From Acanthopleura granulata (Eukaryota; Mollusca; Polyplacophora; Chitonida; Chitonidae), in NCBI GenBank assembly GCA_016165875.1, contig JABBOT010000005.1:3951862-4015861 (forward strand): 64,000 bases of DNA. The letters run 5' to 3'. Of the stretch, positions 4,501 through 63,573 are shown piece by piece (the first letter of the stretch is position 1; each line of letters begins with the position of its first letter). The notes beneath the pieces are model-generated. The model ran no database searches. It was given only the letters and a program-made list of their open reading frames with translations, and had not been told where the DNA came from. The translations under genes were made by a program, and so were the position numbers.

Positions 4501-7500
4501 ATGCAGCTAAAATTCATGCATCAGCCAGCAAAAAAGATATTTTTATTTACAGTGAGGGTTGTTAATTTGAAACGAGTCAGCTGTAACAGCATGGAAGAGA
4601 TATTTTTGTGTAGGCTAGTCAACATGCATAACGGGCATCAGGCAAAGAAGCATCAGCCAGATTTTTCGCTGCTAGTGATGAGGCCTAAACAGCCATGGAT
4701 TATCACTCGTCACTTGAGATCTTCACTTCATGTACATGTGCGTGTACCTGCTGGTAAGCAGTGGTAAATGTCTCTTTTTGACTTGTCACATTCATGTAAA
4801 CTGTAGGGTGAGAAAGTCGGTCGAATGCTCCCCAGACTACTACTAAGAAAACTACGACTGTATAACATCAAGGACTGCTCCCGATCCCGGCATTCAGTTA
4901 AATTGCACTGTCATCAGTCTGTCGAAATGTGACATAAATTCATTAATTTGACAAATACACCAAGGTAAGTATACTGCCAGTGTAATTACTTTGAACCCTG
5001 TCGGTAAATTTATTGAGGATGAAGGTGAAAACTGTCAAATGGGAGCCGTATTTGAAGACATTATGCGACCCGAAATCTAGGTGACACAGTGCTGACATCT
5101 TGTTGACATGATGCCAACACCGTGTAGACACCTTATTAACACAGTGCCAACATGGTTCCAACACTGTGTCGACATGTTCAGTTTTCATTAGGTGAATTTT
5201 TTTGTGCACTGAAGATTACCATTTTTGGTAAGAAGCCTGACTTCTTAATTACACCTGCAACTCTACTAGCGTGAATTGGATTTGAACCTATGATCTCACT
5301 CACCAGAGAGGCTCCCAGACGGAAAGAACTGATTCTTTATTTATATATCTATTGTTTTTGTTGTACACAGGCCTTACCAAAACTAGAGAAGCTGGAAGTG
5401 CTCAATTTTGGGGACTGTTTGGTACGGACAGAAGGGGCCAAGTCTTTAGCTAAAGCTTTGGAGGAAAAACACCTGAAATTAAAGGTAAGTGCCTGCATGT
5501 AGTATGTTATGCCTCAATGTTAATGTGAGTTTGCTGAAATCTTGTAAAAAATGAAGGATCAAAAACCCCCAAATGAGACACTGGAATATGAATTTTTCCT
5601 TTCATTTAAAACTATTTGATTTGATGGTGCCTTATTCACGGAATGTTACAGGAGCTAATATTGTCTGGCAATGAGATTCGCAAGGCTGGGGCTTTGGCTG
5701 TTGCAGAGAGCATGGAAAACAAGAATGACCTGGTAAAACTAGACTTAGATGGTAAGTGGTTCAGTCATCCTGGTTAACCTAGACTTTGATGGTAAGTTGT
5801 ACAATCATCCAGGTTAACCCAAACTTTGATGGTAAGTTATGCAATCATCCTGGTTAACCTACACTTTGATAGTCAGTGGTACAATCATCCAGGTTGAACT
5901 AGACTTAAGTGGTACAACCATGTCGGTTTAATAGACTAAAAGTGGAACCTGGCTCAATGGTAGGCTGTGTCACTCTTCTCTACCTGTACATTTATGATTT
6001 CTTTTGAGATTTGCCAGTTGAATATCAACACAAAACATCATCATAGACAGTTGACTTTTCCTTGAGGCCACAAAGATGGCCATAGCATAATGATAAGTAG
6101 GTACATTTTACTGAGTGGGATACACAACCTTTATGTCTGTGCTTGTGTACCCTCATGCGAGTTATGCACAAGGTAACTTTTCAGTCAGCCTAGATTAAGA
6201 AAAAATTCTGTTTTATTGTCAATAACCAAACAATTTTTGATGATGAAACGTCAGCTTGGATGTCTCCTTGCCCCTCAACTCATTTAAACACGAGATTGTT
6301 AGTGAATAGTACACAAATGGGTGTGTGTTTCTGGTTACAGCTAACATGCTGGGGGATGAAGGTATTGAGGTAGTGCAGGGCACGATGGAGGCCATGGGAC
6401 GCGTGGAAGCTTTAGGAACATTCAGGTAACCCCCATGGACATCCATGTGCCACATTTGGACAGACGGCTGAATTTGAATATTCATCTTGCCATGGTCATG
6501 TGTGTTCCTTAGAAAGAAAAATAAAGTTCACATAAACTGGATGGCTGTTGCTTGAAACAATGTTTACATGAAGAGCATCGATCAGGCAACAGAATTAAAC
6601 ATTGATCAAGTGCTGTGGTATGCTTTTTAAAAGTTTCCTAGATATCATATGATGTAAAATGTAACAAAATTTACCTTATTCTCTCTGTTTACTAAACTTT
6701 GAACAAGAGTGTTGCTTTTGTTTGTGTTCCTAAAAATAAATCAAATGTTTCATTCATATTTTATCGAAGAGAAGATCGTTCTTGCCTAACATCGGACTGC
6801 TAAATGGAGGTCATCAGGTGAAAGGAAGACCTCTACACATTTATTGTTGTCTGATTTCAGTGATGATGAAGGGGAAGATGAGGATGAGGAAGAGGATCAG
6901 TCAGATCACAATTCTGAGGTCAGGACATGCAAACATGGCTGAATACACTCTGAATATGACTGAATAAACTCGGAATATGACCAATTAAACTTCTAATATG
7001 TCTGAGTAGACTTTGAATATGACTATGTAGCCTGAATATAAATGGATAGACTCTGAATGTGGCTGAATATACTCATGATAGGACTGAATAAGCTGTGATT
7101 ATGGCTGAATAATCTTTGAATAGATTGAATAACTGCTAAGTATGACTGAATAAATTTTGAATATGACTGAGTAAAGTGGATATGACTGGATATAGCCTGA
7201 ATATGATTGAATGTATTTTGAATATGATTGAATGTGAATTTATTCTTAATATTACTGAAGGGGCCTCTGTGACTCAGTCGGTTAACGAGCTAGCACAGCG
7301 TAATGACCTAGAAGCCTCCCACCAATGCGGTCACTGTGAGTTCAAGCCCAGGTCGTGCTGGCTTCTTCTCCGGCCGGTATGTGGGAAGGTCTGCCAGCAA
7401 CCTGCGGATGGTCGTGGGTTTCCCCTGGGCTCTGGCTGGTTTCCTCCCACCATAATGTTGGCCGCCGTCGTATAAGTGAAATATTCTTGAGTACTGCGTA

Positions 7501-10500: not shown

Positions 10501-13500
10501 AAATGACACATGCTGTCAAATAACTAGATGCCTGGCCTACTACAAATTTTAATATCATGAGGGGTTGACCACCATTTTCTCAAATTAAATCAGCTGGAAT
10601 GCATGTACTAACGTCCTATCACCATAGGAACAGGGTGAGGGTGGCATTTGCTCATTGGATGATATTTTGCTCTGTTAAATTGTAGCCACAAGTAAAGGAA
10701 ATTTTTTTCAACCATTATTTGTCATAGTTTATACCTGCAAAATTACCTGATAGTACTTCAACACACTTCAGAGATATAGCCAATCCCTACCCGTCCCCAC
10801 CATTTTCTGGTTCAGAGTTCAGAACAGCAGAGAATGGTTGAAGCAAGTTTTTATTGTATACATTTTACTATAGTAGTGTGTTTTTCAGGTAGAGCAAGTC
10901 ATTTTGAAGATAATACGTCACAAAACTTTTTAATATGGCTGGATAGGGGCATGTGTAATTCAGAGCTGGGAATGTTTAAGTAAAGTAGTGCATTTTTATG
11001 GATGTCACTTGATTTTACACTGAAGTAAAAATAGCTGTTGTTGTAGCAGTCACACGTAAGTAATATCTACAAGGTTATAAAAAATAGTCTTTTAAAACTA
11101 GACCTAAGACAGAAACTATTTAGCTGATGAAAAAAAAATTTTTTTTGGACTTTATGAATCTCTGTTAATGGTATTCAGCTACACAGACCTATGTAATTGT
11201 AGGAAACATATTTGATATTGTAACCATATTAATCATTCTAAAGGGTCATGGAAAAGTCGTGGAATTTGTAGACCTGAAAATTGTGCGAAGCCCGCAGCTA
11301 TTTCCATTGGTGGACAACAGCATGAGGTACCCACAAATATGGTGATGTGGTAGTACTCATTACAGTGCTTCACCACTTCAACTGAATTTACTTGAAACTA
11401 ATCTTTAGATTACCTATACTAAGTACAGTGGGAGCATACGCCAGACCTGAAGCATAGGCATCATCGTCCAGTAATAGCTAAAGGAATGTTAAGGCTGGTA
11501 CCTGTACTGTAATTCTTCAACCTTTTCGTGTGTTTGCAAGGCATTTATTCAAGTATATTCTGAAGGCATTAATGTGAAGTTGAAGGACTTCATTCTGAAG
11601 TCAGATTAAAAATGTGCATAAATTGTACTAAAATTTGCTCTTTCACATGCGAAAAGGTTGAGGAATTAGAGTATGTCAAAAAGTACTGCAAGTCATAATA
11701 CGAGGGTGATATTTCATGTTTGATGAGTCTTCAAACCTGCTTACAGTTCCCTTGTGACCTCTGTCTCTGGTTTGTTTCTGCAGACAAACTACTGTCACAG
11801 GTGATGAAATCTGATCCAGAGAAGCAGGGAGTCCAGGTCTCCAATGCTATACTCGTGTATTTAGGCTTGATCAAGGCAAGTGGTTTCCTTGGTGTTTGTA
11901 TATGTACACCATTTTCTGTCTTATTCCTCAAACTGTTAACAATATAACAGAACAGTGTAGTCCAATTTAGTAGTGTAAAAATGTGACAAAATGTTACAGT
12001 TTTACTGTTTTTATTTTATCTGTTCTTTTGAATTTATTTTTACTCTACTTGTTTATCATTTAGACGTACATGTATAAAGGAATCAAATGTGTCTAGAAAG
12101 CAAATTTCTTTTGCTTTGTTTCCAATGAATAATGACTAAGTCTGCCCCTTAATCTGCCAAGTTGACCCCTATCTCATTGTTAAGGAACTAAGACGGTATT
12201 AGGAGACCTCTACATTGGCTGCTCAGTCCTCTTGTTTCAACCCCTCACCAAGACAAAAAATTTGTTTTGTTTTTGCCTCTGAATTTGAAGCCAAGCCCAA
12301 ATTTGATCTGTTCTTCCTTGACCATTGGTTGCATTTTCCACACAGGCAATATTAAGTTTTAGAAACTCACTAAAAACAGATATGGAGAAAACCATTTAAA
12401 GAGAGGTGAAAACAAAACATCTGTTACAGAGATCAAGCGAGCTGAGTAAATCTAACGAGTGTTTTATGATCAATTTCAGGGTGAGGATAAGAAGTACAAA
12501 GCCCCGAGTGATATAACAGGCCCTCTGCTAGTCCTGACTCACGTTGTTCAGCAGCCCTACTTCACAAAGTCTGCGCGGGACATCCTCTTAGCCTTTGTCT
12601 GCAAGTAAGTCTGGCAGCGTTCATACCCCAGAATGCTGTGCAGCGGTGTGCCCACTTGCACGAAATTCTCTCAACATAACGAGCACACAGCTTGCTGTGC
12701 TGGTTGCCTTGGTAGTTACGTGCTTGTAGTGTTGAGAGGGCTTCGTGACGACTGAACTTTTGCTTTGGTGAGCTGGGCCCGTTTGCCAACTGTCTGCAAT
12801 TAATTGTATTATAACCATATAACTCATTTCACAATCAAGGGTAAAAATGAATTACACCAGTTGCATAAAGGAATTATAAGGTGATTGTAACTTTTCGAAG
12901 TTACTACTGGGATTGTAAGCAAAATTTATTTTGTACAGAGAATTGTTATGTATAAATGAGAATGTATTAAAGTTCTTTTTGAGAATATTAATTGCACATC
13001 CTTGCAAAAGGAGTTGAAAATTTCTAACTAACCGCCCATGTAAGGCACATATTTGTACCAAACATTTATTTTTGGGCCAGTGGATTGTCATTTTTGATTG
13101 TAAGCGTTTCACAGTTCCTTTGTGCAAGGGGAAAAATGTTGTTGGTTTCCCGGGCCTCTGCACAGTTTCCTCCGCCCATAATGCTGGCTGCTGTCTTATA
13201 TGGTAAATGTAGTGAAATATACTTGAGTGCTGTGTAAAACAGCAATCAAAGAAATAAATAAATTCTACAAGGAGACATAGCAGTAAATATGACAATAATA
13301 TTCTTACGAGCTACGTCAAACGACTGGCCAGCAATCTAGCTTGCCATTGAGTACACCTTGTAAATTCTCATAGGGGGGTAAAAAAAAAATTGGACACGTG
13401 GCATTTATGTTTAATTGATCGAAGGTGTGCATGAGCATGTAAATAAAACTGTTGTACACAGTGATTCTTCCTCATACTAGCAATGGGCAATTCTGGATAT

Positions 13501-13859: not shown

Positions 13860-14155
13860 TTACGATGGATATTGACCAAGGACGGATATCTTTGTGTGAT
13901 CCAGATGGATAGAACCTTGGTCAGGATGGGTATCTCTGTGTGACCCTGATGAATAGAACCGTGGTCAGGACAGGTATATCTTTGTGTGATCCAGATGGAT
14001 AGAACATACGTCGGAATGGATATCTTTGTGATCCAGATGGATAGAACCTCGGTCAGGACGGATATCTTTGTGATCCAGATGGATAGAACCTACGTCAGGA
14101 CGGATATCTTTGTGATCTTGATGGATAGAACCTACGTCAGGACAGATATGTTTGC
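13860..14155 (+). repeat. 42-46-bp tandem array starting at the RanGAP1 stop codon
   Basis: GGATATCTTTGTGATCCAGA units with GATAGAACCTACGTCAGGAC recur about seven times (TATC at 13887, 13931, 13977, 14021, 14063, 14105; TATG at 14147). The last units settle at exactly 42 bp. The array begins within about 25 bases of the TGA and forms the first part of the 3' UTR. Confidence 0.9.
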
Positions 14156-14305
14156 CTTGGTCATGATATTGGTGTACCTTGATCATGACATTGGTGTACT
14201 TCGATCATGACATTGGTGTACCTTGGTCATGACATTGGTGTACCGTGGTCATGACATTGGTGTACCGTGGTCATGATATTGGTATAACTTGATCATGACA
14301 CATCT
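14156..14305 (+). repeat. 22-bp tandem array in the RanGAP1 3' UTR
   Basis: GGTGTACCTTGATCATGACATT recurs every 22 bases from about 14171 to 14300, six to seven copies. It follows the 42-bp array without a gap. Confidence 0.9.
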
Positions 14306-14459
14306 TGGTGGACAAAGGTCATGGTTGATATTAGTGGACAGTGGTCAAGATTAGTATTTGTGTACCACATTTATTCTGGAGCATTCTGGTGAATGTGAGT
14401 GTACCATACTGACTGAGCAATTGTGATATACTTGTCATACGTAACTTACTGGTCAGTAT

Positions 14460-14835
14460 GGGGATTTGGTCAATTCATGGATTGGACCAGAAAGGACAGT
14501 ATGCTTTCATTACACCATCCTGTGGAACACAGGAATATGACCAAATTGGACATTACACTTTGATAGCACCAGTCTGTACAATGCATGAATATGGCCAAAT
14601 TGGATCTTATAGTTTTATGACAACAGTCTGTACAGTGAAGGAATCTGGCCACATTGGACGTTACGCTTTCATGAAAATTCTGTATAACACAGGAATATGG
14701 CCAAATTGGACGTTACGCTTTCATGACAACAGCCTGAACAATACAGGAATATGGCCAAATTGGACATTACGCTTTCTTAACAGTCTGTACAGTGAAGGAA
14801 TCTGAACAGTTTGGACGTTACACTTCCATTTCACC
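14460..14835 (+). repeat. 54-bp tandem array in the RanGAP1 3' UTR
   Basis: Units of the type GGAATATGGCCAAATTGGAC ... GCTTTCATGACAACAGTCTG repeat about seven times with 52-54 (first 64) base spacing. Because 54 is a multiple of three the frame stays open, giving an 18-residue pseudo-repeat. I see no evidence that it is translated. Confidence 0.85.
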
Positions 14836-15019
14836 ACGTGTAAAGTACAGTGAATGTGGCCAAACTTGAGGATAATCTTTGATCCCAGCAACTTAGAATT
14901 GATTGACGTATGTGCACCAGGTACACAATTCCAGACAACATTCATTCATTTAATACATTGAAGTACCAGGAACAAAGTAGTGAAGACTAAAATGTTTCGA
15001 TGATTTTGTCTTAAACTGT

Positions 15020-21742: not shown

Positions 21743-22224
21743 GTTAAGATACAGGAGATTGTTTACATGTAGCCATTGCTTTGTATAAGAAACTTATTTG
21801 ACAATTTGAAAACTACTTCATAAGAAAGTGGAAATTTAATGGAGATATTTGTGTAACTTTCTAAGTCCAGATTCTTGGAATGAATGAATGGGTGATTATG
21901 GCAGAATGCCAAGTTGGCAATATTTCAGCCATTTTGCAGTCAGAACATCCAAGATGTCTGTAGGACTAAAATGTAGAATGAGATTAGTTTATGACTTTGA
22001 ATGCAGCCAAATACTCTTAATTACAGATCTGGCTAACTATTCTTCATTACATTGCCTGAGACTCTTAACTGGCACAATGGTGATATGCTGGAAAATTGTT
22101 CTGCCACAACCCACGATTCTTGGAAAACTTGTCAATGACTGCAGATTGAGGTCTGCCAATGACTGTGGTCCTGGGCAATACTCATCGTAACTCCTATCCT
22201 CCTGAGTCTCCATAACTAGTTCTG

Positions 22225-22575
22225 GTACAGCATTCCATCTTCTGGAACAGCATTCCTTATACTGGTCCACAAGATTATGTTTTGGTACACCAGTCCCAAG
22301 TTCTGGTACACCAATTCCAAGTTCTGGTACACCAAATCTAAGTTCCGGTACACCAATCCTAAGTTCTGGTACACCAGTCCTATGTTCTGGTACACCAATC
22401 CTATGTTCTAGTACACCAGTCCCAAGTTCTGGTACACCAATCCTATGTTCTCGTACACCAGTCCTAAGTTCTGGTACACCAATCCTAAGTTCTGGTACAC
22501 CAGTCCTACGTTCTTTTACACCATTCCACATTCTTGCACACCAGTCCTAAGCTCTGGTACACAATTCCACATTCT
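22225..22575 (-). repeat. 21-bp tandem array immediately downstream of the SLC7 stop codon
   Basis: AGTTCTGGTACACCAATCCT(A) repeats every 21 bases (for example 22321, 22342), about 16-17 copies, most uniform at 22275-22520. On the transcript strand it starts about 12 bases after the TAG, so it is the proximal 3' UTR. Because 21 is a multiple of three it keeps a 164-codon frame open (GVPEL-type heptads), which is not the SLC7 frame. Confidence 0.92.
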
Positions 22576-22586: not shown

Positions 22587-25500
22587 CTAATCCCAGTTCA
22601 CTGCATCAGGATCATCCTGAGGCACAACCAACAATAGTTTCTGTATGTTGTTTGTCACCCAGTCTGAAAAATTAATGGACAAAGTTACAAATAGCTTCAC
22701 ATTAATTAAGGTCATAACTGTCAGAAGAAACAGACATGAGCAACAGAAATTAGCTGAAACATGAATGACCATGGTGATGTCCAAAAAGTCTGCTCACAGG
22801 CTCTCTATGAATGAGGTAACTCTTGGAATTCTAAGAAAATACCGTGCAATGCACTTAAAACCCAGGGTTTTTATGTATACCAGCCATTCATCAAATTGTG
22901 TAGGTGTGATATAAATTCGGTGAGCTGGAGATAAACTGTTCAAAAGATAGAGCCTTTTATAAGCCTTTTACAAAATTTAACTCAAATGACCACAATGACC
23001 TTGGAAAAAGGTCAGGATTGCTGAAAATCAATGGGTTTATTCTTCATGATAAAAGTGTAAGTATGGTCTAAGTTTGGAGAACTTGGGCTAAACTATTTGA
23101 GACAGAACGTTTACCTGCCTTGTATAAAATTTAATTTAAATGAATCCAATGACCTTGAAGAGAAAGACCAAGGTTACTCAAAATCAAAAGGGTTCTTCCT
23201 AATGCCAAAGTGTAAGTTTTGGTAAACATCGGATACACCGTTCTAGTGATAGAGCATTTACAAGGATATGGACAAAGAGACAGATGGACGCCGCCTGCTA
23301 CAACAATACCCCTTGGGTAAAATGCCATTCGATCACACAACTCCCAAATTAAAAAATTCCAGACAAAAGTTCACAGACTTTCCTTCTATTCTTCTATTAC
23401 TGGGATATCAGCACAAATATTGGCAACTTCTCTCAGCAGTATGTCTCAAACAGATATAAAGCTGCCATGCTTGAGAACTGTCAATCAGTCCAATTATGCC
23501 AATGATTCACTTAAAATCAGTGTTACAGAAGCTGAAAATCCGCCTGAACACATACATGTACAATGAGAGACGGATCTACTGTTAGTCTTGCAACCAATGT
23601 GAAGCCCCTCTCACCCAATGTTATATCTGACTGGAATCACAGCTCACCTATCTTGTTCTGGATGGCTTTAGGCTTACTCTTCCAACGATACCCAACCACG
23701 TAGACAACGACCCCAATTCCCACCAATCCGATGGCTAGGGCACTCTCATGAGGCTTCTGGTAGACGGTAAGTACAACGATGAACAGGCTGACCAGGCTGA
23801 GGAAGATGGGTAACACAACTGGCAACTGCGAGAAATGGAAACACAGATCCGTGTACATGTATGTCAGAATTACAGGATGTAAAGTTTTCGCAAATGTCCC
23901 ATTGATGTACAGCAAACAAACCAGCAACCCACAACAAGAGGAGGACTGAAGCACAAATGAATGTCTCAATCCGAGTTAAGCTGGTCTTCATTTCACTATC
24001 CAGTGGTTCCACAGATTAATTTAGTATAAAATAAAACTGATGATGGCACGAACTAAGTAGCCGAAATATAGATTGGCAATATAATGACTTCAATATTCGG
24101 AGTCACCTTCCTTCTATTTTAATTTCACTGCACTGGTACAAAATGCGTAAAATGGTGACAGAGTTTATAAATACAGCACAGATTAATAGGAACTAGGGAA
24201 GAGAAAGTCATCAAAGCCCAAGACGTGCCTACACTTGACAGGTTTCTGCAGTCCTTGCAGATGGCCAATATTCAACAATCTAAATCTAATTAGGGAGAAG
24301 CTACCAGGTATAAAATACCTTCAGTCTGTAAATGACATGTTTAACTCATGTTGTACAAGCTTAGAGGTAGCCCAGCCTATGGTGTGTATTTACAAATGCT
24401 AGCCAACATCAAAATAACAGCAACTTGATGAGTCAACTGAAAAGATTGAGGACACCAAAAGTGTTAATATTCAAAACAAAATTTAATACATACAAACTAC
24501 AATACATAAATATTAAAACTCAACAATAATGAAAACATTTCAACCTTAAATTCATGGCAAAAGAGCCAAGGAAAAACGCACGTAATTTCACCTTTATTGG
24601 CCTCTTAAGCTTGGGTTCTTTGTAGCGCAGCCAGGCTTGGCCTGCCAGAACCATCGTTAACACGGAAGCGAACCCAAAGCCTTCCATCTCTATCAGGTAA
24701 AATATATCATTTGACGACTGCATCAGCAATGACAGAATCAGCTGAAAGAGTAAGAGAGCAAGGAATCTTCAACATGGTCCAATGTAGACACACACTCACA
24801 AATAACCCCCTTGACAAAACTTACTGGTGACGAGAGGATGTGCTTTCATTGTTACAGATTGTTAATTTGAAAGAAAAGACCACATTTACACAAAGCATGC
24901 ATCATTTAAAAGGCCATTTCATGCCAATGCCAAATATGGTTTTTCCTACTTTTGGGGCATTTTTTTTACACTGATTAAAAAGGAAATGAAAATTGAGCCT
25001 ATCGTGGGCTTTTTGGACCATACTGAAGTACAGTGGCATCACAGATTCATTTTTGGCAGCTAAACGTACTGTAACTGTTATATTTTCACATTAAGGCAGA
25101 TATACATGTTGTGCTACATAAATATTAATGTAAAATGTAAACAAAATATCAAGAATGTTTAGCAGCTAAAAGGAATCCTTGACATCACTGTGCTTCTGTA
25201 TTGTCCAGAAAGTCCACCGTAGCACAGCAATCTTTATTCCCTTTTTCATCAGGGTTAAAAAGGCCAAAAACTAATAAAGACCATATTTGAAATCAGCATG
25301 AAATGGTCTTTCAGTTGATGCAAACTTTGTGTACTTGTGAACTGTTCTTTTAATTATATAAGTTGACTGTCTTTCCACAAGGTTATAACACCCTACATGT
25401 ACTATTCTCAAGTTTCAATATACGCCTATACGTGGAGATGACAGTACACTACACTGGCAGCTTATTAATTTGTTTACTTCCAACCGGATGCAACAAATAG

Positions 25501-28500
25501 ATTTAACACAGAGAAAGCAAGTCTCCCAAACTAATTTGTTTTCAAACAGACTTTCAAGGTCATACAAACCTTTCGAAATAAAACTTTCAATGATTTCAAA
25601 GAAAAGTGGGTATCTGTTTATATGACTTTGTACACTGCTGGTGTTTGGATATCACTATATGATGGGATGTTGTGTTTGGATAAAACACCAGCAGGTTAGG
25701 AGGGTTGTTTTCACAGGAGATGTATGTGTACATTCATTATACTTACAATAACCAGTAATGATGGCATGGGGGTGAGCTGCTTCATGTTGATCATGGACAT
25801 GGGGGCGGGGAAGTGGCCTTCTCTGGCACCCACCCAAAATAACCTGAATCAGACAAAACAGACAACACACTTCAGGCTATCTGGTATAATTTTCTGCATG
25901 TTTTTTTGTTGTTTTTTTTTTTAAGTTAGTAGATTGGTGAATTCAGAATGTTGTTTATGACAAACTAAAAATTTCCTTTTTCACCAAACTGAATTGAGAT
26001 TCTCCCAGTACTGTTTGCGAAATAACACTACACAGAATGATTGACAAGGGGCAAACTTCCAAAACATGGGTATGTCAACAGATCACAAGTCTCATTGATC
26101 CCGTCACAAGTAAATGTATTCATCTGACTGCCATTTAATGTCATACTCAAGACATTTTCAACTGCATGAGTTAAAGAAGGTCTGTTTTAGGAATGGACAA
26201 CACCAAGACTAAACCACCGCTCCTGGGCAAGTTACTGATGACCTTTCTATCACCAGTCAAGGATGGTCTTTTTTAGGAGTGGACAACACCAGAGTACCAG
26301 GGCTAAACCACCACTCCTGGGCAAGTTACTGACGACCTTTCTATCACCAGTCAAGGATGGTCTGTTTCAGGAGTGGACAACACCAGAGTACCAGGGCTGA
26401 ACCACCACTCCTGGGCAAGTTACTGACGACCTTTCTATCACCAGTCAAGAAATCAAGATTGTAAGTTTACTGAAGCCGTTTGTTACCTGAGCATTGGATG
26501 GAAGCAGGCTCACAGTTGTAACCAGGTAAGTTCAAGTCGAGGGAGAGTGGAATGGTGGTGGTCACGTTTTTTTGGGGGGTGGGGGGGGGTGGGGGGGTGT
26601 ACGTGCTCAGGACATCATTTCAGCTGATGTTCTCCAGAAGGGTAAAGGATTGTATAATAGGTCTTGTTAACTGAACAACACTACATTTTCTTTGTGGGTT
26701 TGTTGTATTTTGTTGAATGGAATAAATGGGGAACATTGCCAAAGAGAAGTCAGAGCAAGTTTGGGTACTCTTTTGTACCTTTCTGTAACTTCTCTTTGTT
26801 TGTGTATACATAAGAGGTAATTCACTAACAGCTTAACAGACAGGAACGACTGGACATTACTTCAGTCGGTAATCTGTAGTCAGGGGAGGTAATTCATTAC
26901 ATACTCGTCAGTCACTAAGATGCTTTAGGTCTTATTTTCAGAGTGGAATAAATAGGGCACATTTAAGCCTAATAAGCTCTAACTCTGATAAGATCAATTT
27001 ACTTTGTCAGCAAGATTTTTCTCCCATATGAACTCTGGCCTCTTCCAAAGTCTCAGTGCTGTCGTGTATATATATATATATATATATGTATATACATACA
27101 TCTATCTTAAGACCATGGGTCAAATTACTCCTGTGAATGGGGGGGGGGGATTGTGTCAACAGATGTTGGGTCACCCAATCTCACCTACATCTGTGACCAG
27201 ACACGAATACATGTGGGAAAGTGAGGGCGACTTAAGTGCAATGACCTAGAATCAACACCCTGTACACAGATGTACCAGAGATTAGTGCCAAACTTTATTA
27301 ATCAGACTAGTGCTAGAGATGAGTCTGCCTTAACAACTCATGTGAATCTGAATATGATTCCATGCATCACGAGTGAGGTCAGGGCTGTGGGGAATGATTT
27401 TACTTATCTGAATGTTTCGCACCACATTCAAGAATTCTGTGAGGAATGATCCTGACATTAAGTTTCTATTTGATGACCTGGGCTAAAAGTTAGCCCAGTG
27501 AATCAATACCGAATGACTTTACATGTTAGAGGACAGATTACGGGGTCAGCAGTCTATAGATCACTATGTGATCCTTCAAAGATTTTTTCTTGTGCTAGAA
27601 ATGACTGTCACATGTATGTGTTAGAGCACAGATTAGGGAATGAGTAGTGTATATATCAAATATATAATCCTTCAAAGATTTTCTCTTGTGCATGGAATCT
27701 TGGAAACAAATCCCAATGATGTTTACAATCAAGAATATGATAAAGGTAATCTCAAACTACTGCCTCTGATTTCTGCATTTTTGTGACAGATACATTTACC
27801 AGTGACCATAATGTTCAAATCTATCCCTACCAGTAACTAACCTGGCCTACATGTTGTATGTGAATGAAGTCATATTATTTCTGAATGCAGTACAAACCGG
27901 CTGGGTTTTTATTGGGTAATATTTCACACAAGTGTAAAAATCTCAAAGCGGTCACCCTGTCCTCAATTAACTTATTAATACCCTAGCTGATGTCTGTTTT
28001 GCTTTTGTGCGTTCATGGTTGGTTGTTTATCGGAGCTCATACACTGGTGATCTAGGAACTCCACAAGAGACTTCCGGAAATAAATGCTTATACAGCTAGC
28101 ATGAACTTAGCGCTTTACTTCCTGATCACAAAACTACCAACCGATATCGTTTCCCTCTTGGCACGATAATGACATCTGCCACCCTGTCATATGGCAACTC
28201 GTGGATAATCCTGATCTATGTACATAATTTCCTGATCGTACAGACCAACGGCCTCCCACTAAGAGCTTCAAATAACACACGAGAGGCACGATGGCTATGT
28301 GCTGGTGCCACCACTTTTTATCAGTACTTCATTATATACCTATCCATTAATGTTAAACAAATGTAAGTCTTTCTATAAGAGGTCTTAAGGTTTACTCTGC
28401 AGCCAGAATATAATCTTGTAGAAAGTTGAGCATGTCTTCTGGCTTTTGTTTTTCTCTCGTTCCCTTTTTACATTTGTATACATTTGACCTACATGTATTT

Positions 28501-37500: not shown

Positions 37501-40500
37501 TCACCTCTGCCGATGTACAACAAGCCGATGACGATGATCAGAGCCAGAGCTATGAGTTTGCTCGCTGTGATCACCACCTGCATCTTGGTGGCCCATTTCA
37601 CATTCCTCATATTGATAGCAATCAAAAAGCCTGCAACACAAAATGGATTCATCACCCACATAACAGTACCACACATTTATAATGAAAGACGTTTTGTCAC
37701 AGTATCAAGTTGGTAAGGCCAGAAGCCTTGATTTACAGGTATTTACAGGTATGTTCCAATATACTTGAAAAATAAGCATTATCTGAAGAAGACAGGGGTA
37801 ATGTATAAAGGTACATGGACTTGTTACCATGGCAACAAGTAGAACCTTGGTGGAGGGCACATCACTTGTCCAGGATTGGAAGGCTTGATAGCTCTCTGAA
37901 CAATAATGAATTCCTCCAGCCTCAGAAATGTTTTAAGAGAACCATCACTCATATCGGGCAAGCACTTCATTAAAATAGGTCTATGTTTTAAAATTAGTAA
38001 GATGTTAAGGAACAGAACTAGGTCAAACAATTACTATCATGCTTCGAAGCAAACAGAAATGAGGAAAAAAGAGAGATAATTTTTCAGTGATAATAATCAA
38101 AGGTAATTTCATTCACAATTCGGTGAGACTGATTCATAGGTCAGCTAAAACTATTTGAGGAATGCGGAGAACCAGGTGTCCTTCAAGGAAATGATGGGAT
38201 TCATACAACATGAAGATTTATTTGATCTGTGATTTGATGTCGCTATGGGGCTTCAGTGCCCAAGAGGTTAGTGTTTAAAGCTCTGTGCAATGACCCAGGA
38301 GCGTCTCACCAATTCAAGTCTGGCTCAGGCTGGCTTCCTCACCGACCTGCCCTTAACATGTGGATGTCGATGTTATCAGTGCAGAAACTGATGCGTGCAT
38401 AATAATTTATTTAACATTATCAGTTCGTGAAGTCCATGAAATGTCCAACATGCATGTCACAACAATGGTGTGTGTTTTCTAACATACATAACTAATTTAT
38501 ACGTTAAAAGACTAAATTCTAGTCATTGTTTAGCTGAAAAATATGTATACTGGTAAAAAAAAAATAATCAAATTTCACCTAAAAAAAGATATACAATGCT
38601 CACGGCCTGAAAAAGATGTGGTGCATAAGGCCAAGCTGTCTGAGGAAGTGGCCGATTCCCTGTCTGTCTAGAAGCCGGACATAGGCAAAAATGTATCTCA
38701 CCGGACTACTTTCACTCTCGCTCAGCACATCCTCTGACTACACCCCCGTGGTGAAGTTTGTACAGCCATTGGTTCGGAGGAGAAAACAATTACCCACCCC
38801 ACCACCGTGGCTCTGTTTCAAGCTTTGATCAAGGTAAAAATGGCAAATTTCAGGGTAGGGCACTCAGCAGTGGGTGTACACCTATATGGTGTGACTGAAA
38901 AGGCCAATGAATTACAAACTGTGTACATCCATGAAGCAAAAGTGGCCACCATAAATTTATGTATTGTGGTCACTTCAATTCTTAAATGCAAAATAATGGT
39001 ATTTGAGAGGCTACATGTACATGCATACTTTCCTGAACTGTTTAATTACAAACAGAGTCCTCATTTTTTCTGAGGAACACTGAAGCTGGCACAGATATCT
39101 ACTATGGGTAATAGGGAAATGCAGCTATACATAGACCAACCATAGCTAAACATGGCTGGTATTGGGTTTCACTCAGTGTCAGTTTCTAAACAAAACTGAG
39201 AATTCATAGAGTGTCGAGGGGTGTGAGGCTGGGTGTGTGGGGTCATGTGACCACAGCCGAGCGCATTAGTGGTTGGATCATCAGAGGTGCACCATGGGTT
39301 ACTATGACACCCTCTGGCCTGACTGGCACACCAAGTACCTAGTCAGGCCATCCATAAAAATTGTTTGCTGGGTGAAACTCAACCCGTTTGGAAAAGTTAG
39401 TGTACGTTTGTAGGGAATTTTTTTTTTACAGCCTATTAAATGAAAAACATTTTAAGAAAGAAGTTCCACGCAAGCCCAACAAAAATAAAAGCATACATGC
39501 CTTCTGAAGGGTCTTTTGGGTTACATCTGTGAGTTATTCAATTTTCAACAACACCCTATATGCACAGATTTATGGCAGTCTACTGAGCTTTAATCTGGAA
39601 TTTCCATACACCTCTTGATGTCTTTTATTCTAAAATATAATGCAGCTTGTCTTTTATTCTTCGACATTGTTTTGTGCTTCTGGGCTCCTAAATCCTGTGG
39701 AATCTCCATAAAAACCTATAAAATGTCAACACTGTTTCTCTTAACAATGCACACGTCTCGTACCTTGCCCGTCAAATGCTGTGTATATTCAATACAAACT
39801 TCTAAGCAACGAACGTGTCACATCGAAAGTGCGGTCAGTGACGAAAAAAATGTTTTCTATCTCATTAACATTAAAAACACATGAAATAAACTGGATCTAG
39901 ACATGCTCCTGCATGTTTGTGGTCAGTTTTTTGGCAGCTAGGGTTCCTTTGCTTATTTTCACGACTTCAACACAGATTTGTTGTTCCTTAAATACATGTA
40001 GACTTGTCAGGAACGGAAATCAAGTGTGTCCACAAGATGCATCCGAAGTGAGGTTCCTGCGTCCTTTCAGATTTTAAGATGTTACCTAGAAACAACTCTA
40101 ATATAAGAGTTTAGTTTCACACAGCAAAATGTAGGAATTACAGTTAATGAACTAAACGTTAATTCGGACACTGAGCCCCATGAGTTCCACGCACCAAAAA
40201 TGTCACCTCATTCTGTTGCATAACAAGATGCAACTTTCTGTCACCAGTGCAGCTGTGGTAACCAGGTGCATTGGAATAACTTAATATTATGATATTAAAT
40301 GCCGTAGACATTTTGGCTGTAGGCTGAGGTTGTAAGAGTGCATTAGTGCCATGTGAAGGGCAGTGAAGTATAAACATCTCTTACATAATGTTGACACTAC
40401 ATCTGTCACTTCAATGTTTAGAGTTAGAGGAAATCTGGTGAGAAAATGGGTCACATCTGAGCTCAGCTCAGTTTCACTGGGTTGAAGTATTTAGTGTACC

Positions 40501-43006
40501 TGACCTTACATGACAAGGATAACGATCAAATTCAAATTTATATTCCTCGCTAAAAATGCAAAACTTCTGCATGGAGCAAGCTGGTCTTTGATCTTGATCT
40601 GAGGATCAAGTATATGTGTTTTTTGACATTACAGTTTACTTCATTCTGGAGAATGGAAAGTTTCAATTTTATGTTTGCCATTTTCAACTTGTTCCTCTGA
40701 GAGGTAAGGATTGAAAGGTTCCTGTGTCCTATTTTCGACATGTCAAGCTTAATTCTGCACTGACTGCATAAAGCACATGTGAACACAACAGTGTGACCTT
40801 ACGGACCTCATACATGCAAATAAGTGCCAATTTGAGATCTGCTTAGGAGGACTACAAGGCCATCGCAACTTATTTTCGAGAAACAATGTACTCAACACAC
40901 AAGCAGTATGACGAAGACACCAATATGACCTTACGGACCTCCCACATGCAAGACTGCCATAGTTTGAGGTCTTTCGTGACAGATACACACAAGCTGATCA
41001 TGAATTTTGTCCACAGAAGGACTAGGGACTAAAGTAGAGCCGATTTATCGGAAATGGGAAGGCTTTCACACAGTCATCACAAGCTGTTTTACAGGATATG
41101 AAAATAAATATTTAACTAAAACTAGAATATTAATAATACTGGACGCTACACTGATAGTGACAGCATATTCGCTCACCATCGGCCAACAGTTGGTGTATGG
41201 TCAACAAATCATATGCCACACGTTCGCCCACGATGGGCAGAGGATGTAAGGCTAGGATCCGGCGGTAACTGTAGCTGAAACTTGAGAAGTATTCAAGCAT
41301 GCCACCTCATTGGCCAAGGGTCAGAAGTAAAGCTCTCCAGTACTTTATAACCATCTTAGCGAGGTACATGGCCACAGCATTACCCACCAGGGGTTTTCCT
41401 AGCCACTTGCGGTTACCACAATGAGAAATATTCCAAAATTGAGTTTCATGATACATTGGTGACGAAAAAATTGTTCAAATAGAGGTTTTAAAAAGAAATT
41501 GGCTAGAAAGGCCATTGCCTACAATTTCAAAGACAAGGCCTGGATTTGAACCCTGGAATTCCTCACAGATCAGCTATTTCAACAGGACATGGATTTGAAC
41601 CCTGTCACTGTTCACATCCTCAATCATGTCAATTCAACATCAAAACTGACTTGTTTCAGCACAACTTATTCACTGATGTGATTGGTGTTTTATGCCCTAG
41701 TTAAGAATATTTTGGTGGCCAGCATTATGATGGAGAGGAAAGTGGACCATCCACAGGTTGCTGGCAGATCATTCCAAGTATGACCTGAGAGGCAGCCAGC
41801 ATCCACTGCACTTGAATTCACACTGACAGCATTGGTGAGAGGTTCCTGGGTAACTGCACTGCAGTAGATACTGATTCCCTCGGTCACGGAGGCTCCCTTT
41901 TCAACTATAAGGCACTTCTCCTAGAAGAGCCATTAATTTATTTACAGATTGCAACATTGACGCATAAGCCAACTAACCAATGACCTGTGCTTCATGAACT
42001 TTCAAAGTACAAAAAGTTTATTGACACACCACTTCCAGGGCCAAATGATTATTTGTTATTATATTGGCCTACACCATTGGTAACTCATCATCATCAGTTG
42101 TTTTTCACTCGAGATAATTTGGCCAAAAGTCCTACTTACATGCCCAACCTTCGTGACGACATTTGGTCATTGTTTTCGGTAAAGAGTGATTACCAACCAT
42201 AGAAGTAAAGGTCATGAGGGATTATTTCGCTGGCAGGATTTTGGGCAGTGTACATACATAGTAAGATATGCATTCATAGTACTATTTCTTTATTTGAATG
42301 GTGTTTTATGCCACACCCAGGAATACTTCACCTATACAACGGCGATGGGCCAGCACTATGGCGGGAGCTACGAAACCCATGACCATCCCACAGGTTACTG
42401 GCAGACCTTCCCAAATTCTACCGAAGAGGACGGCAGCATGAGCTGGACTTGAACTCACATCCACCGCCTTGCTGAGAGGCTCATGGGTCTATTTTAGAGT
42501 ACTAACTAGTATGTATGTATCACTGAGTATTAATAATCTTACTTACATATAATAACCGCTGCAATAAGCCTGACTGCAGACTGGGGCGGATCACAATCCG
42601 GGAATACAGGCTTTATCAGGTAAGTCGAGAAGATCAAACAAGCCGCCGCTATGCCGACTGGACAGATCAAAAGAAAGTTTATCCACAGACAAATGAAGGC
42701 AGGGAAGTCCCCGAAAGCTTTCTTGATGTACATGTACTCCCCTCCAGACTGGGGTATGGAGGCCCCGAGTTCGGCATAACACAGAGCACATAACGTGTTG
42801 TAGATACCGCAAATCACCCACATTACCATCGACATCCCCACAGAGCGCACGTGGTACAGAATTCCTACCGGCGACACGAAGATTCCCGAGCCGATAATTA
42901 TACCAATAATAATTGCCACGCCTTGCAAAAGCGTAATTTGCTTCTTGAGTTCAACTTTCTTGGTTATCTGGGCACTGCCCTTGTCACCCCTCTTACAAAA
43001 ACCCAT
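22587..43006 (-). CDS. SLC7A9-like: SLC7 heteromeric amino-acid transporter light chain (b0,+AT/xCT/LAT type), complete, 10 exons
   Basis: This is a 12-helix amino-acid exchanger light chain (APC superfamily) of the plasma membrane. Exons in transcript order: 43006-42547, 37630-37505, 33310-33211, 32490-32446, 30352-30229, 29622-29519, 25843-25747, 24741-24592, 23825-23648, 22663-22587. They join in frame to 486 residues plus TAG; human b0,+AT (SLC7A9) is 487. The start is the ATG at 43006; an in-frame TTG five codons upstream is not needed. Visible motifs are the helix-1 substrate-backbone motif GSGIFVSP (39-46), Cys138 in the loop where the disulfide to the SLC3 heavy chain forms, [32 protein letters not shown], and a C-terminal VVPQDDPD like the family VVPxED tail. 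Length and C-terminus favour SLC7A9 or SLC7A11 types, but the subfamily is not settled. Exon 5 heads a 98-bp tandem array of its own acceptor. Confidence 0.92.
24887..25333. mobile_element. Long foldback element, arms about 170-180 bp
   Basis: From TACACAAAGCATGCATCA on the left, the sequence to about 25066 (GGCAGCTAAACG) is matched in reverse by 25157-25333 (GTTTAGCAGCTAAA ... TTGATGCAAACTTTGTGTA). Identity is roughly 75-80 percent and the spacer about 90 bp. No protein is encoded, so it is non-autonomous. It lies in the SLC7 intron between exons 7 and 8. Confidence 0.8.
26175..26455. repeat. 94-bp tandem array, three copies
   Basis: GACCTTTCTATCACCAGTCA recurs with ACCTT at 26241, 26335 and 26429. 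The first unit lacks about nine bases (AGTACCAGG). It lies in the SLC7 intron between exons 6 and 7. Confidence 0.92.
26570..26602 (+). other. G-run cluster, potential G-quadruplex
   Basis: Runs of 6, 9 and 7 G separated by single T occur on the plus strand. In the SLC7 pre-mRNA the strand is C-rich, so a quadruplex would be on the DNA non-template strand relative to plus. Confidence 0.6.
27068..27100. repeat. Short (TA)n with ATACAT flank
   Basis: About ten TA units followed by GTATATACATACATC. Confidence 0.9.
27100..29510. other. SLC7 intron between exons 6 and 7, nothing further recognised
   Basis: There is a poly-G run near 27140 and a related CAGATTA-TATATC-TCCTTCAAAGATTTT pair at 27532-27585 and 27628-27685. 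No coding signal was seen. Confidence 0.5.
30229..30352 (-). CDS. SLC7A9-like: SLC7 gene exon 5, the working copy at the end of a 98-bp array
   Basis: The exon encodes residues 245-285 ([13 protein letters not shown]...SPAVAV), reaching the seventh predicted helix, with acceptor ATTTGTTCAG|GAACC and donor GTG|GTAAGC. It is the only one of nine near-identical exon starts that runs on into the full exon ([14 protein letters not shown]) and a donor. The other eight copies stop matching after 68 exon bases. Confidence 0.9.
30353..31139 (-). repeat. 98-bp array: eight extra copies of SLC7 exon-5 acceptor and exon start
   Basis: Exon starts preceded by CAG lie at 30352 plus 98k for k=0 to 8 (last at 31136). 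Each unit is 68 exon bases (GAACCTGCCC...GCTAATGTGG) plus 30 bases ending ACATATTTGTTCAG. Only five sites vary between copies: three are silent (GTG/GTT, ATT/ATC, ACC/ACT) and two change a residue (I/V, N/S). The copy farthest upstream has a different flank (GAAGATGAGCAG), marking the original intron edge. Confidence 0.97.
33171..33240 (-). repeat. 32-bp duplication of SLC7 exon-3 end and donor
   Basis: The true exon end and donor read ATAGTGGATG|GTAAGGGG (exon edge at 33211). Thirty-two bases into the intron the same segment recurs as AGAGTGGATGATAAGGGG, with the GT donor changed to AT. Confidence 0.85.
33800..33835. repeat. Short (GGTGCAGGT)n run
   Basis: GGTGGTGCAGGTGGTGCAGG, three to four units, in an SLC7 intron. 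Confidence 0.85.
33850..37500. other. SLC7 intron 2, nothing recognised
   Basis: The flanking exons (37505 and 33310) join in phase with conserved sequence on both sides, so no exon is missing. Open frames up to 106 codons lack recognisable motifs. Confidence 0.65.
38248..38362 (+). mobile_element. Diverged SINE, 3'-truncated
   Basis: A degraded tRNA head (GGGGCTTCAGTGCCCAAGAG, GTTAGTG), then GACCCAGGAGCGTCTCACCA, CAAGTCTGGCTCAGGCTGGC. It matches the first half of the family only. Confidence 0.65.
38363..41671. other. SLC7 intron 1, mostly unrecognised
   Basis: Besides a diverged 132-bp direct repeat (TGACCTTACGGACCTC at about 40795 and 40927), no coding or mobile sequence was recognised. 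Confidence 0.5.
41672..41898 (-). mobile_element. SINE, nearly full length, minus orientation
   Basis: TGATTGGTGTTTTATGCCC ... GCCAGCATTATG ... CATCCACAGGTTGCTGGCAG ... ACTTGAATTCACACTGACAG ... GGTCACGGAGGCTCCC, with a deletion in the middle of the tRNA-like head. Confidence 0.85.
42288..42490 (-). mobile_element. SINE, head-truncated, minus orientation
   Basis: GAATGGTGTTTTATGCCACA ... CATGACCATCCCACAGGTTA ... ATGAGCTGGACTTGAACTC ... GCTCATGGGTC. It ends only about 55 bases from the SLC7 exon-1 donor at 42546. Confidence 0.85.
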
Positions 43007-45240: not shown

Positions 45241-45242
45241 AC

Positions 45243-53690: not shown

Positions 53691-53694
53691 TCAT

Positions 53695-56082: not shown

Positions 56083-56412
56083 AGCAACCCTGGCACCACC
56101 AGAATTAGGCGAAAACAACAGTAACCCAGGCACCATCAGAATTAGGCGAAAACAACAGCAACCCTGGCACCATCAGAATTAGGCGAAAACAACAGCAACC
56201 CTGGCACCATCAGAATTAGGCGAAAACAACAGCAACCCTGGCACCATCAGAATTGGGCGAAAACAACAGCAACCCTGGCACCATCAGAATTAGGCGAAAA
56301 CAACAGCAACCCTGGCACCATCAGAATTAGGAGAAATCAACAGCAACCCTGGCACCATCAGAATTAGGCGAAAACAACAGCAACCCTGGCACCATCAGAA
56401 TTAGGCGAAAAA
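56083..56412. repeat. 37-bp tandem array, about nine copies
   Basis: CAACAGCAACCCTGGCACCA followed by TCAGAATTAGGCGAAAA repeats every 37 bases (AGAATTAGG at 56101, 56138, 56175 and on). The units are nearly identical. Confidence 0.95.
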
Positions 56413-56946: not shown

Positions 56947-57705
56947 GCTGGAATCTGGAAGTTTCGTGTATAACATGTACAAGCAGGCGTTTTAGACAGT
57001 AGCATGGACTAGATATGGTACAATACTCTTCAGCACTGGACAGATCTGACATTTGTACAGGTGAAAATAGATGCAAGATGTCTGCACCAAGGTGAATGGA
57101 AGGGAGAACGTCCACACGTGTGATTCAAGGGCAAAGAATGAGGTGCATACATGTATATTAAAAATGAATTGCTCATGTGAATATAAGAATAGAAGAGATT
57201 ACTAAAACATGTACTTTGTAAAATAATTATTATACCGGGGACGCACGAATAAGTCTGTAGAATTCTAGGTTTAACGGTTATCAGTGTTCTTTGAGATCAT
57301 CTGTGGTGCCATTCTACCACCTTGACAAGGCGGCCGAGCAGTCTGTCAAGCTCGGATGGTGACACTTAAATTTTTTATTACTTTCATACAATTTACCGTT
57401 TTGTTGGAGGATAATACCCGTGATGGTAATGGAAAAGATCGATCGTGGAATCTGGAAGTTTCGTGTATAACATGTACAAGCAGGCGTTTTAGACAGTAGC
57501 ATGGACTAGATATGGTACAATACTCTTCAGCACTGGACAGATCTGACATTTGTACAGGTGAAAATAGATCCAAGATGTCTGCACCAAGGTGAATGGTGTC
57601 TGTCAAGCACGGATGGTGACACTTGAATATTTTATTACTTGCATACAATTTACCGTTTTGTTGGAGGATAATACCCGTGATGGTAATGGAAAAGACCGAT
57701 CGTGG
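56947..57705. repeat. 257-bp A+B duplication interrupted in its first unit
   Basis: Block A (GAATCTGGAAGTTTCGTGTA ... CACCAAGGTGAATGG) lies at 56947-57100 and 57447-57595. Block B (TGTCAAGC-CGGATGGTGACA ... GATCGTGG) lies at 57340-57446 and 57597-57705. Order A1, 240-bp unrelated segment, B1, A2, B2. Identity within blocks exceeds 95 percent by eye. Confidence 0.92.
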
Positions 57706-57719
57706 TTTCTACAGAGTTA

Positions 57720-58734
57720 GTATCAAGTCCAAATTTGTATGAAATGATTTACTTTTGCAAAGGAAAGTTTGGTATACGCAAGTATATAATAATCCACGGA
57801 TCTACAAGACGGTTCACATTGCCTTTATCTACAGGGACGAAAATGGGCCCGAATCCACAAAACCTTTTCTGACTCATGACAAAATTTAATACCTCGTCAC
57901 TATACTTAGTTTTTAGTACTGAAATAAGAAATTGTGTGTGACACGTAACATGAATATGGGTTGAGCAAAATTTTAATTTCTATAGGGATCAGCACTGAGG
58001 TGAAGAAAAGAGGTATCGTAAGATACCTCCATGGGACCATTGTCATGCTGTGAACCCAGAAAATGAACACAAATGACCACAGCAAGATTCAAGGTGCGGC
58101 TTCAGGTGACTTTTTCAACTGGTTTTCATGTCTAAACAAGGAATTCGTGCCATTTAGCTGGTATCAAACAAAGAGCAACTGACTCGGTTCTAAATGTGCA
58201 GCTAATTGAATGACTTCTATACATCGGTGGGCAGGGAAAAGATTTCGATGGAGGCTGGGCAGGGTGATGAAATATTCATCATATGTTGTTAATGGACCAT
58301 GCCCATCACGGTAATCTGTATCTTATGTTTTATGTGTATAAATCCTCCACCATCTGGTAACTCCCAACTTTGGTTGATCGTTCAATAAATTATATCGATG
58401 CTGCAGGTTGGCGAGGCTAAGCTGGCGATATGGATATTTCACTTTATTTCCACACGACCGAAAACTCCCTAAGGGAATGTAAAGCGCGGTGTAGATTACT
58501 CTGTCTTGACGGAGGTCACCCAGAGCGAGAAGTGTATTGATCTAAATTTCTTTGAACCGAAAACGTTTTTACATGCTTTTGAAACCTGTAAGTAGTATTT
58601 GTACTAAGGATTACTTTGTTACGCGGATGCACGTCGTGTACGACCGTGGATAGACAGAGCATAGTTTGCAGATTGAGAAGTGGCGATTTACATGGATTGC
58701 AATGTTGTAATCCTAGGACAATTTTAATGATAAG
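57720..58734. other. Upstream region of the discoidin-like gene
   Basis: No TATA box or repeat is evident. Two short upstream reading frames begin at ATGs near 58692 and 58726; the second overlaps the chosen start in another frame. Confidence 0.4.
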
Positions 58735-61700: not shown

Positions 61701-63573
61701 GCTGAGAATATCAATTCTTTATTGCCATTGGTAAAGCGCTGGGAACACACAGAAATATAACTTTATAGATGGGTACACCAACATATGTAACTTTCACAGT
61801 TGAGTGAGTGAGTGAGTGAATGCTTGAGAATATCAATTCTCTATTGCACTTGGTAAGGCGCTGTGCCACTCTAACAATCCGGCCATTATAGTAAGTGAGG
61901 TGGAATGCGAAACTGTCACGAACTGTACATCTGAGGTCTGCAGCCTAAACCGTAAAACACGGCTTCTTGGCAATTTTCTTTGCAACCAGGTTATCTCCGT
62001 GTTACCATACTCATATAGCGTTGTCCACTGGAAAGCCTTGCCATGGAGTCTCTCCCTTAGAACGCCATGCCAAAACCCTCTCGGAACCCCGTTCCATAGC
62101 GTCACCTTGGAACGCAATGTCATATATCGCCGTCTTATATCTTATTGAAACACCATGTCGTATAGCCGCCATAAATCACACGTAAACTAGCTAAACAGCT
62201 TACCTTTGGAACACACGGGCGCGGCGTTTGCTGTGACATTTTTAAAATCCAGTTCCTCACGTTATTTTTTAAACGATTTCAACGATTCCAATAGCTCCTT
62301 TTTGTTGCAGAGTACGCAGGTTTGATGGAAGGTGTAGGGATGTGGTTAGCACTCCAGTTAAATCAGATGTATCTGGTAAGAGGAGTGCGTGTTCTGTGCC
62401 GCGCCAATGACTGGGAAAGGCCCAAGGATCTCCGACTCACGTTTATGGACGGTTCTGAGCAAACAGTAAGTTACACCCTGATGGGAGATCAACTGGGAAA
62501 GAGATAGGGATCTTCGACTCCCATTTATCTACGTATCTAAGCAAACGGTAAGTAACACCTGATGTAAATGATCGACTGAGAAAGAGTCAAGGATCTCTGA
62601 CTGACACTTATGGACGGCTCTGACCAAATGGTTAGTCAGGCCCGAGGGGCCGTGTCAGTGATCGATTGGAAAAGAGACGAGGATCTCCGACTCACATTTG
62701 TGGATGCTGTAGCCAAACCGTAAATCAGGCGTCATGGGCTGTGTCATTGATTGATTGGGAAAGAGTCAAGGATGCCCGGCTGACACGTATGGACGGCTCT
62801 GAGCTAACGGTAAGTTACGTCCTGATGGGGGATCAACCGGAAAAGGACCAAGGGCCTCTGACTCACATTCGTGGATGGCTCTAACCAACCATTAAGCCAG
62901 GCCTGATTGGCCGCGTTAGTAATCCAGTGGAAAAGCGCCAATGATCTTCGAGTTACATTTGTGGATGGCACTGGCCAAACGGTAAGTAACACCTGATGGG
63001 CTGAGTCATTGATCGACTGGGAAAGAGCCAAGGATCTCCGACTGACACGTATGGACGGCTCTGGCCACCGCCCGATGCGTCGTGTCAGTGATCTACTGGA
63101 AAAGAACCAATAATCCCGACTCACATTTATGGGCGGTTCTTATCAGACGGTGAGCTAGGTGTGATGGGATGTGTCAGTAATCGACTGGGAAGACTTAAGG
63201 ATCCCCGACTGATACTTATGGACGGCTCTAGTCACGCTTGATGGGCCGTTTATTGACTGGGAAAGAGCCAAGGAATTGTCAGAAATACAATTTTTAGCAT
63301 GGATGTCAAGCATTAAGTCCCTGAAGTAGTAATTTACAATATTTGTTTGGTATTTTCAAAATGTGTTTAACTCCAAACAGATCAGTGATTTAAATTAATT
63401 GGACTTTTTCTTCTTCGCAGGTTACTCTTACAGAGTTTGGTTGGGGCGTTCACTGGGACCAGTTGATGCCCCTGGATCCGGTCGTGACAAACGTCGTGAC
63501 TGTCACAGCTGTGACTGTCTACGGGACAGGGAATAACGGGTTCATCGAATTCGAGCTGTATGGAAGTATGTAA
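58735..63573 (+). CDS. Secreted single-domain discoidin-like (F5/8 type C-like) protein, 4 exons
   Basis: Exons 58735-58810, 61208-61306, 62311-62465 and 63421-63565/63573 join in frame. Residues 1-21 form a hydrophobic signal peptide (FALSVIFSWYALLWGTA). Residues 26-158 resemble a galactose-binding/discoidin jellyroll: an N-terminal NVALG-CCASSQYS-LAVDGQTNT strand, then MWLALQLNQMYLVRGVRVL, LRLTFMDGSEQT and a closing VTAVTVYGTGNNGFIEFELYG. Cysteines are at 36, 37, 48 and 88. In exon 4, reading on gives a stop TAA at 63571-63573 (160 residues) with AATAAA at 63687. However, GGAA|GTATGT at 63565/63566 is also a good donor, so the protein may continue beyond the window. Exon 3 is followed by about ten decayed copies of its own 3' end. 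The ligand is unknown; a secreted lectin or adhesion role is inferred from the fold only. Confidence 0.75.
59022..59215 (-). mobile_element. SINE, head-truncated, minus orientation, in intron 1
   Basis: TTTATTTATTTACTTAACGG, CATACTCAAGAATATTTCAC, CCCGCAGGTTGCTGGCAGAC, CATGAGCTGGGCTTTAACTC. Confidence 0.85.
61322..61608 (-). mobile_element. Full-length SINE, minus orientation, in intron 2
   Basis: It has a (TTGA)n/(TTTA)n tail side, then ACTCAAGAATATTTCACTTA and CGCAGGTTGCTGACAAATC, and ends with the head in reverse (GCGCTAGCGCGCTAATCGAC, ACCACGGAAGCCCC). It begins only 15 bases after the exon-2 donor at 61306. Confidence 0.92.
61790..61850. repeat. (GAGT)n plus local duplication
   Basis: GTGAGTGAGTGAGTGAATG is flanked by two copies of GAGAATATCAATTCT (61704 and 61825 region), a roughly 120-bp direct repeat with TTGGTAA(A/G)GCGCTG. 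Confidence 0.7.
62467..63275 (+). repeat. About 80-90-bp array of exon-3 end and donor of the discoidin-like gene, ten decayed copies
   Basis: Copies of CTGGGAAAGAGCCAAGGATC with TCCGACT-ACA-TTATGGACGG-TCTGA and a donor region follow the true exon 3 (ending 62465). They start near 62490, 62574, 62660, 62753, 62838, 62922, 63016, 63096, 63187 and 63255. An intact CGGTAAGT donor remains in three copies (near 62548, 62811 and 62981); others read GTTAGT or GTGAGC or are lost. Confidence 0.95.

Follow-up and report, generated by a model that had tools for sequence, protein, structure and literature searches.

Mirage-type minisatellites at exon edges in the chiton Acanthopleura granulata and their probable role in intron lengthening

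Mirage minisatellites are tandem arrays whose units span an exon-intron boundary. In amphioxus, they were described in the globin genes BflGb6 and BflGb9, in Adh3 and in the troponin C gene, and similar repeats were found in PGBD5 (excerpts of PMC3087553 and PMC3902484). According to these excerpts, the arrays occur at either end of an exon, carry splice dinucleotides in many of their copies and have reported unit lengths of 10-160 bp. Four arrays of the same build are present in a window of 64,000 nucleotides from the chiton Acanthopleura granulata (positions 3951862-4015861 of contig C5, GenBank JABBOT010000005.1; genome of 606,523,666 bases in 87 contigs). They lie in three genes, namely a RanGAP1 gene (at a donor), a gene for a LAT1-like SLC7A transporter (one at an acceptor and one at a donor) and a DUF7402-like gene (at a donor). 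The excerpts treat a cephalochordate gene by gene and show, or argue for, length instability and normal splicing, whereas the present analysis surveyed 233 mapped exon edges of a mollusc in the DNA of one assembly. No report of mirages outside amphioxus was present among the literature matches listed (titles and starts of abstracts). The chiton arrays have a boundary-spanning unit and many copies with AG or GT, are found at both 5' and 3' boundaries, and have units of 22-164 bp, which overlap the amphioxus range. They are probably mirages in a new phylum and come with a first estimate of their frequency.

Tandem duplication is also discussed as a source of new introns: intron gain by tandem genomic duplication reportedly occurred, for example, in the potato RdRp gene. 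In this process, the duplicated segment lies within an exon, and one copy becomes the new intron. As in the chiton, the duplication yields extra splice sites; however, the chiton units extend across the edge of an intron that already exists, which results in a longer intron and not in a new one, and none of the examined arrays consists of a duplication within an exon. Ordinary intronic minisatellites, represented by the other arrays of our sample, have a similar range of periods and copy numbers, but their units contain no mapped exon edge. We regard it as quite probable that the chiton arrays are mirage-type minisatellites and that duplication of exon edges is tolerated, thereby lengthening introns rather than creating them.

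In the RanGAP1 gene, array A1 (window positions 5729-5945, plus strand) is built of 40-bp units and spans the donor of the exon at 5652-5751 (plus strand; GATG/GTAAGT, with the slash marking the junction), as revealed by three overlapping rows of Tandem Repeats Finder (TRF) and by the sequence. Three extra copies of the boundary, each with GT, follow at offsets of +40, +80 and +120 relative to the real donor. The exon joins in frame to the next one at 6341-6425 (plus strand; frame and homology), and the resulting joint KLDLD/ANMLG is uninterrupted in protein P0121 of the chiton Liolophura sinensis. Array A2 (30285-31139, minus strand; 98-bp unit, 8.7 copies, 98% matches; TRF and sequence) spans the acceptor of the SLC7A exon at 30229-30352 (minus strand). 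This acceptor, TTGTTCAG/GAACC, belongs to the exon-proximal copy of A2, and the protein is continuous at this site in L. sinensis P0001. Eight decoy acceptors are located upstream, seven of which match the real acceptor exactly over 28 bp. Array A3 (33167-33231, minus strand; 32-bp unit, 2.0 copies, 87% matches; TRF and sequence) spans the donor of the SLC7A exon at 33211-33310 (minus strand), and the GT has been lost in its second copy. Array A4 (plus strand) spans the donor of the DUF7402-like exon at 62311-62465 (plus strand) and consists of decayed units of about 80-90 bp, which were delimited by eye, as was the array itself (62406-63300). Three extra GT-bearing copies of the boundary are found at +82, +344 and +516, and the other copies are more decayed. 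TRF detects A4 only at 62588-63063, with a period of 261; because it misses the first copies, the array reaches the exon edge by eye only. The exon joins in frame to the next one at 63421-63565 (plus strand; frame and profile match), and the joined exons match positions 37-133 of the 133 positions of the DUF7402 profile with 24.7 bits, which is below the curated cut-off of 27.

In all four arrays, the unit holds exon and intron sequence, and the array spans the splice site of an exon for which both frame and homology speak. The sequence-only reading of this window, which had placed four arrays on exon edges of three genes, was thus confirmed by TRF and inspection of the sequence. It had further described the units as unrelated and near-identical to heavily decayed, and had concluded that they are not one mobile element; this also holds, since by eye the four consensus units show no relationship, no unit sequence is shared between places, and the decay covers the whole range described.

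The anatomy of edge arrays was analysed in a set of 17 arrays, consisting of A4 and the 16 TRF arrays over mapped edges (three in the window and 13 at sampled loci). Ten of them lie at donors and seven at acceptors, if the doubtful array C33:3111309, which has no boundary copy, is counted as an acceptor array; array C8:3813812 is weak, with an exon overlap of 4 bp. The core GT or AG is kept in 80 of 86 further boundary copies, and such copies occur in 15 of the 17 arrays. Among the offsets listed, 75 of 76 are on the intron side (total copies 86). Spanning arrays extend up to 1.2 kb into introns, in agreement with the intron lengthening put forward in the sequence-only reading. The coding frame continues from the exon-proximal copy, and the RanGAP1 and SLC7A genes match the L. 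sinensis proteins there, which suggests that the exon-proximal splice site is used.

We infer that tandem duplication affects a segment of about 20-160 bp which chances to lie across a splice site, and that slippage or unequal exchange drives the duplication and growth. The extra copies would extend into the intron, while exon and splice site would be preserved at the array end nearest the exon; duplication of the edge would be tolerated because this intact edge persists. Judging from frame and conservation, the spliceosome would keep using the exon-proximal copy, for which exon definition is the likely reason, and the remaining copies would represent decoy splice sites that either drift or are homogenised.

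The frequency of edge arrays was determined for 233 mapped edges, of which 114 derive from SLC6 genes, 44 from kinase genes, 32 from myosin genes and 43 from the window plus 20 kb upstream. The exon edges of the loci were mapped by a simple splice-site search around the ends of hidden Markov model matches and not from transcripts, and unmapped exons remain. The match rows entered were 68 of 107 for SLC6, 32 of 135 for kinases and 16 of 83 for myosins; rows outside the fetched DNA yielded no edge, and the SLC6 row C4:13146071, which is inside the fetched DNA, was omitted as it ran through stops. Two SLC7A edges, namely the donor of exon 9 and the acceptor of exon 10, came to light only afterwards and were not counted in the 233. 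Loci L043-L052 were picked for exon density, after arrays had already been seen in some of the loci L013-L042. Merging of the TRF arrays with a period of at least 15 resulted in 77 arrays in 292,226 bases.

Sixteen of the 233 edges are located inside arrays (nine in SLC6, one in kinase and three in myosin genes, and three in the window set). For comparison, arrays were placed at random under a bounded null, which limits the overlap of an array with an exon to roughly one unit. It was adopted because the observed arrays extend no further than this into exons, and it was chosen after the result of a circular shift had been seen; in our judgement, it is the fairer null of the two, as arrays cannot bury exons. 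Under bounded placement, 5.63 spanning arrays are expected, compared to 16 of 77 observed (p 1.9e-5), and the predicted edge coverage of 2.7% contrasts with 6.9% found, a ratio of 2.5 (bootstrap 1.6-4.2, 57 segments). Seen and expected numbers are 9 and 1.99 for SLC6, 3 and 1.12 for myosins, and 3 and 0.90 for the window set; 7 and 3.05 for acceptors, and 9 and 3.03 for donors. The excess over bounded placement drops to about 1 at 200-350 bp inside the intron. When the TRF limits were varied, 14-16 spanning arrays were obtained versus 5.1-5.8 expected; removal of the two doubtful or weak arrays left 14 versus 5.63 (p 3.5e-4), and the loci ranked by E-value gave 6 versus 1.40 (p 0.001). The sequence-only reading had derived the improbability of chance placement from the window alone, from which it does not follow: the window plus 20 kb upstream contains 24 merged arrays (period of at least 15, 8.7% of bases), 21 of which are off mapped edges by TRF and had been passed over, and for the three that span a mapped edge, bounded placement predicts 0.90 (p 0.056).

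In the whole genome, the donor consensus MAGGTRAGT is found at 29,811 sites, versus 23,891 for the backward control. Pairs of this motif with 20-50 bases between them number 1106 (control: 315), and pairs with 51-81 bases between them, which include second neighbours of shorter units, number 1521 (control: 281). Per single site, donor pairs are 2.8 and 4.3 times as frequent as those of the backward control, and a shuffled 9-mer with identical base composition gave 211 pairs, its backward form 192, versus the 1106 donor pairs. In contig C1 up to 41.0 Mb, 30 donor clusters were detected versus 9 for the shuffled control, and 22 versus 4 with at least two pairs (raw counts, not per site); several donor pairs or clusters at C1:3.11-3.35 Mb belong to one dispersed repeat. 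For the acceptor-like pattern TTYTNCAGG, 66,846 single sites (control: 38,326) and 734 and 796 pairs at the two spacings (controls: 361 and 292) were counted, most of which come from a small number of long arrays, e.g., C1:859025-860162. The array G000:C1:17936423-17938616 matches the acceptor-like pattern on the plus strand and the donor pattern on the minus strand, an inflation of counts by a single array. The sequence-only suggestion that this genome may form such arrays often is upheld by the 16 of 233 edges in arrays and by the numbers of donor pairs. Donor sites seem to be crossed at two to three times the rate expected from bounded placement. Either a bias in the birth of arrays or a longer persistence of those anchored on a selected copy could account for this excess.

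A number of results weigh against a special relation between arrays and exon edges, or limit how firmly it can be put. SLC6 drives much of the excess, and its removal leaves 7 spanning arrays versus 3.64 expected (p 0.039). The kinase loci show no excess, with one of 44 edges and one array versus 1.63 expected. Genome-wide, acceptor-like pairs per site are only 1.17 and 1.56 times the control, so that donors show a clear excess and acceptors a weak one; donor pairs need not each lie at a real exon, and long arrays are counted repeatedly. The choice of the exon-proximal site is read from frame and conservation rather than from RNA. With a circular shift, which allows arrays to fall on exons, 10.1 edges in arrays were predicted versus 10 of 158 seen, in the set before the myosins and the window were added. 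The last result and the kinase loci are in line with a genome that is simply rich in minisatellites, in which edge arrays fell where they did by chance and were tolerated. Arrays with a period of at least 15 cover 4.7-9.1% of the sampled sets, and coverage is flat across the edge, with 6.9% at the edge, 7.1-7.4% at 25-350 bp and 7.6-10.1% at 350-1500 bp of intron; at 50-100 bp inside exons, it is 1.5%. The sequence-only claim that chance placement is unlikely is supported only in part: array coverage at the 233 mapped edges does not exceed the intronic coverage (7.1-10.1% at 25-1500 bp), and the circular shift shows no excess either, but bounded placement is exceeded 2.5-fold, and genome-wide a clear excess is seen for donors only. 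As both the bounded comparison and the donor pairs, whether set against the backward control or the shuffled 9-mer, speak for a preference, we consider its absence rather unlikely. The reverse proposal, that splice donors are preferred sites of minisatellite birth or survival, with arrays renewed by gene conversion from the selected exon copy and edges acting as nurseries of intron lengthening, is possible, albeit doubtful. Most likely, the arrays arise by ordinary tandem duplication, tolerated as one intact exon edge remains, with an unexplained donor excess in addition.

A model put forward for amphioxus globins regards such arrays as stages of intron gain (excerpt of PMC3087553), and decoys with intact GT or AG might define new exons. 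The chiton units, however, straddle the boundaries of already existing introns, and no new intron was identified in the examined arrays. Moreover, the nearest core decoy would preserve the frame in only one of the 15 arrays that have one, and the stretch added by it is interrupted by a stop in one or more frames in all 15 arrays and in all three frames in three of them. The route to intron gain suggested in the sequence-only reading thus finds no evidence in the examined arrays and is highly improbable; intron lengthening is supported, whereas intron gain is not. Selection might also keep decoy splice sites, e.g., for the regulation of splicing, and a flank-based recount showed that 68 of 74 copies keep the core dinucleotide, versus 54 expected from other dinucleotides. 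By our own estimate, however, a fair expectation is nearer 63, because the real copy alone is constrained at the core and other positions diverge in both copies; the retention is therefore no proof of selection, and the decoys seldom keep the frame, which makes this explanation very unlikely. That the arrays are assembly artefacts is hardly credible: the copies of A2 are 98% alike, their number is possibly wrong, and the published assembly combined MaSuRCA with optical maps (excerpt of PMC7850002), but matches amount to 67-93% in the remaining 15 arrays that span edges by TRF, which is not something assemblers invent, and the same anatomy recurs at many unrelated loci.

The SLC7A gene (22587-43006, minus strand) has ten exons according to splice sites, frame and homology. 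In addition to the two exons described above, these are located at 42547-43006, 37505-37630, 32446-32490, 29519-29622, 25747-25843 and 24592-24741; the ninth begins at 23825, and the tenth and last, which was found later, is near 22661-22587 (all on the minus strand). The nine-exon model (464 amino acids) extends slightly too far, so that its final few residues come from the last intron and are non-coding. Its protein shares 96% identity with L. sinensis P0001, and the next 14 matches (P0002-P0015) 67-71%. The closest match of RanGAP1 is likewise from L. sinensis (79%; incomplete gene model). P0001 and P0121 are encoded on one contig of 58,388,612 bases, and the linkage of the two genes may be conserved between chitons. 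GCAAGT follows the RanGAP1 exon at 11784-11875 and apparently opens a GC-AG intron. One RanGAP1 intron contains a minisatellite array with 55-bp units that is more than 1.2 kb long (window positions -1142 to 115, beginning in the upstream flank L010). RanGAP1 and the last SLC7A exon are each followed by a tandem array (13879-14864 and 22218-22562, respectively), which starts about 20-25 bp past the stop codon. Similar short frames recur at about 4.2-4.5, 7.3-7.7, 12.9-13.3, 15.5-15.7, 55.0-55.3 and 59.0-59.3 kb of the window, which suggests a dispersed repeat family. In the downstream flank (L011, L012), the first 5.4 kb or so past the window are N, followed by retroelement-like frames with zinc-knuckle-like cysteine patterns.

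Mirages are thus found in a second, distant lineage, with cases enough to measure array formation and intron lengthening. Array A2 represents a natural test of splice-site choice, in which the spliceosome is predicted from the frame to ignore strong decoys. If donors should indeed act as nurseries, mirages would be recurrent in repeat-rich animal genomes, with independent origins in chitons and amphioxus. The occurrence of mirages in a mollusc hints at a more widespread route of intron growth.

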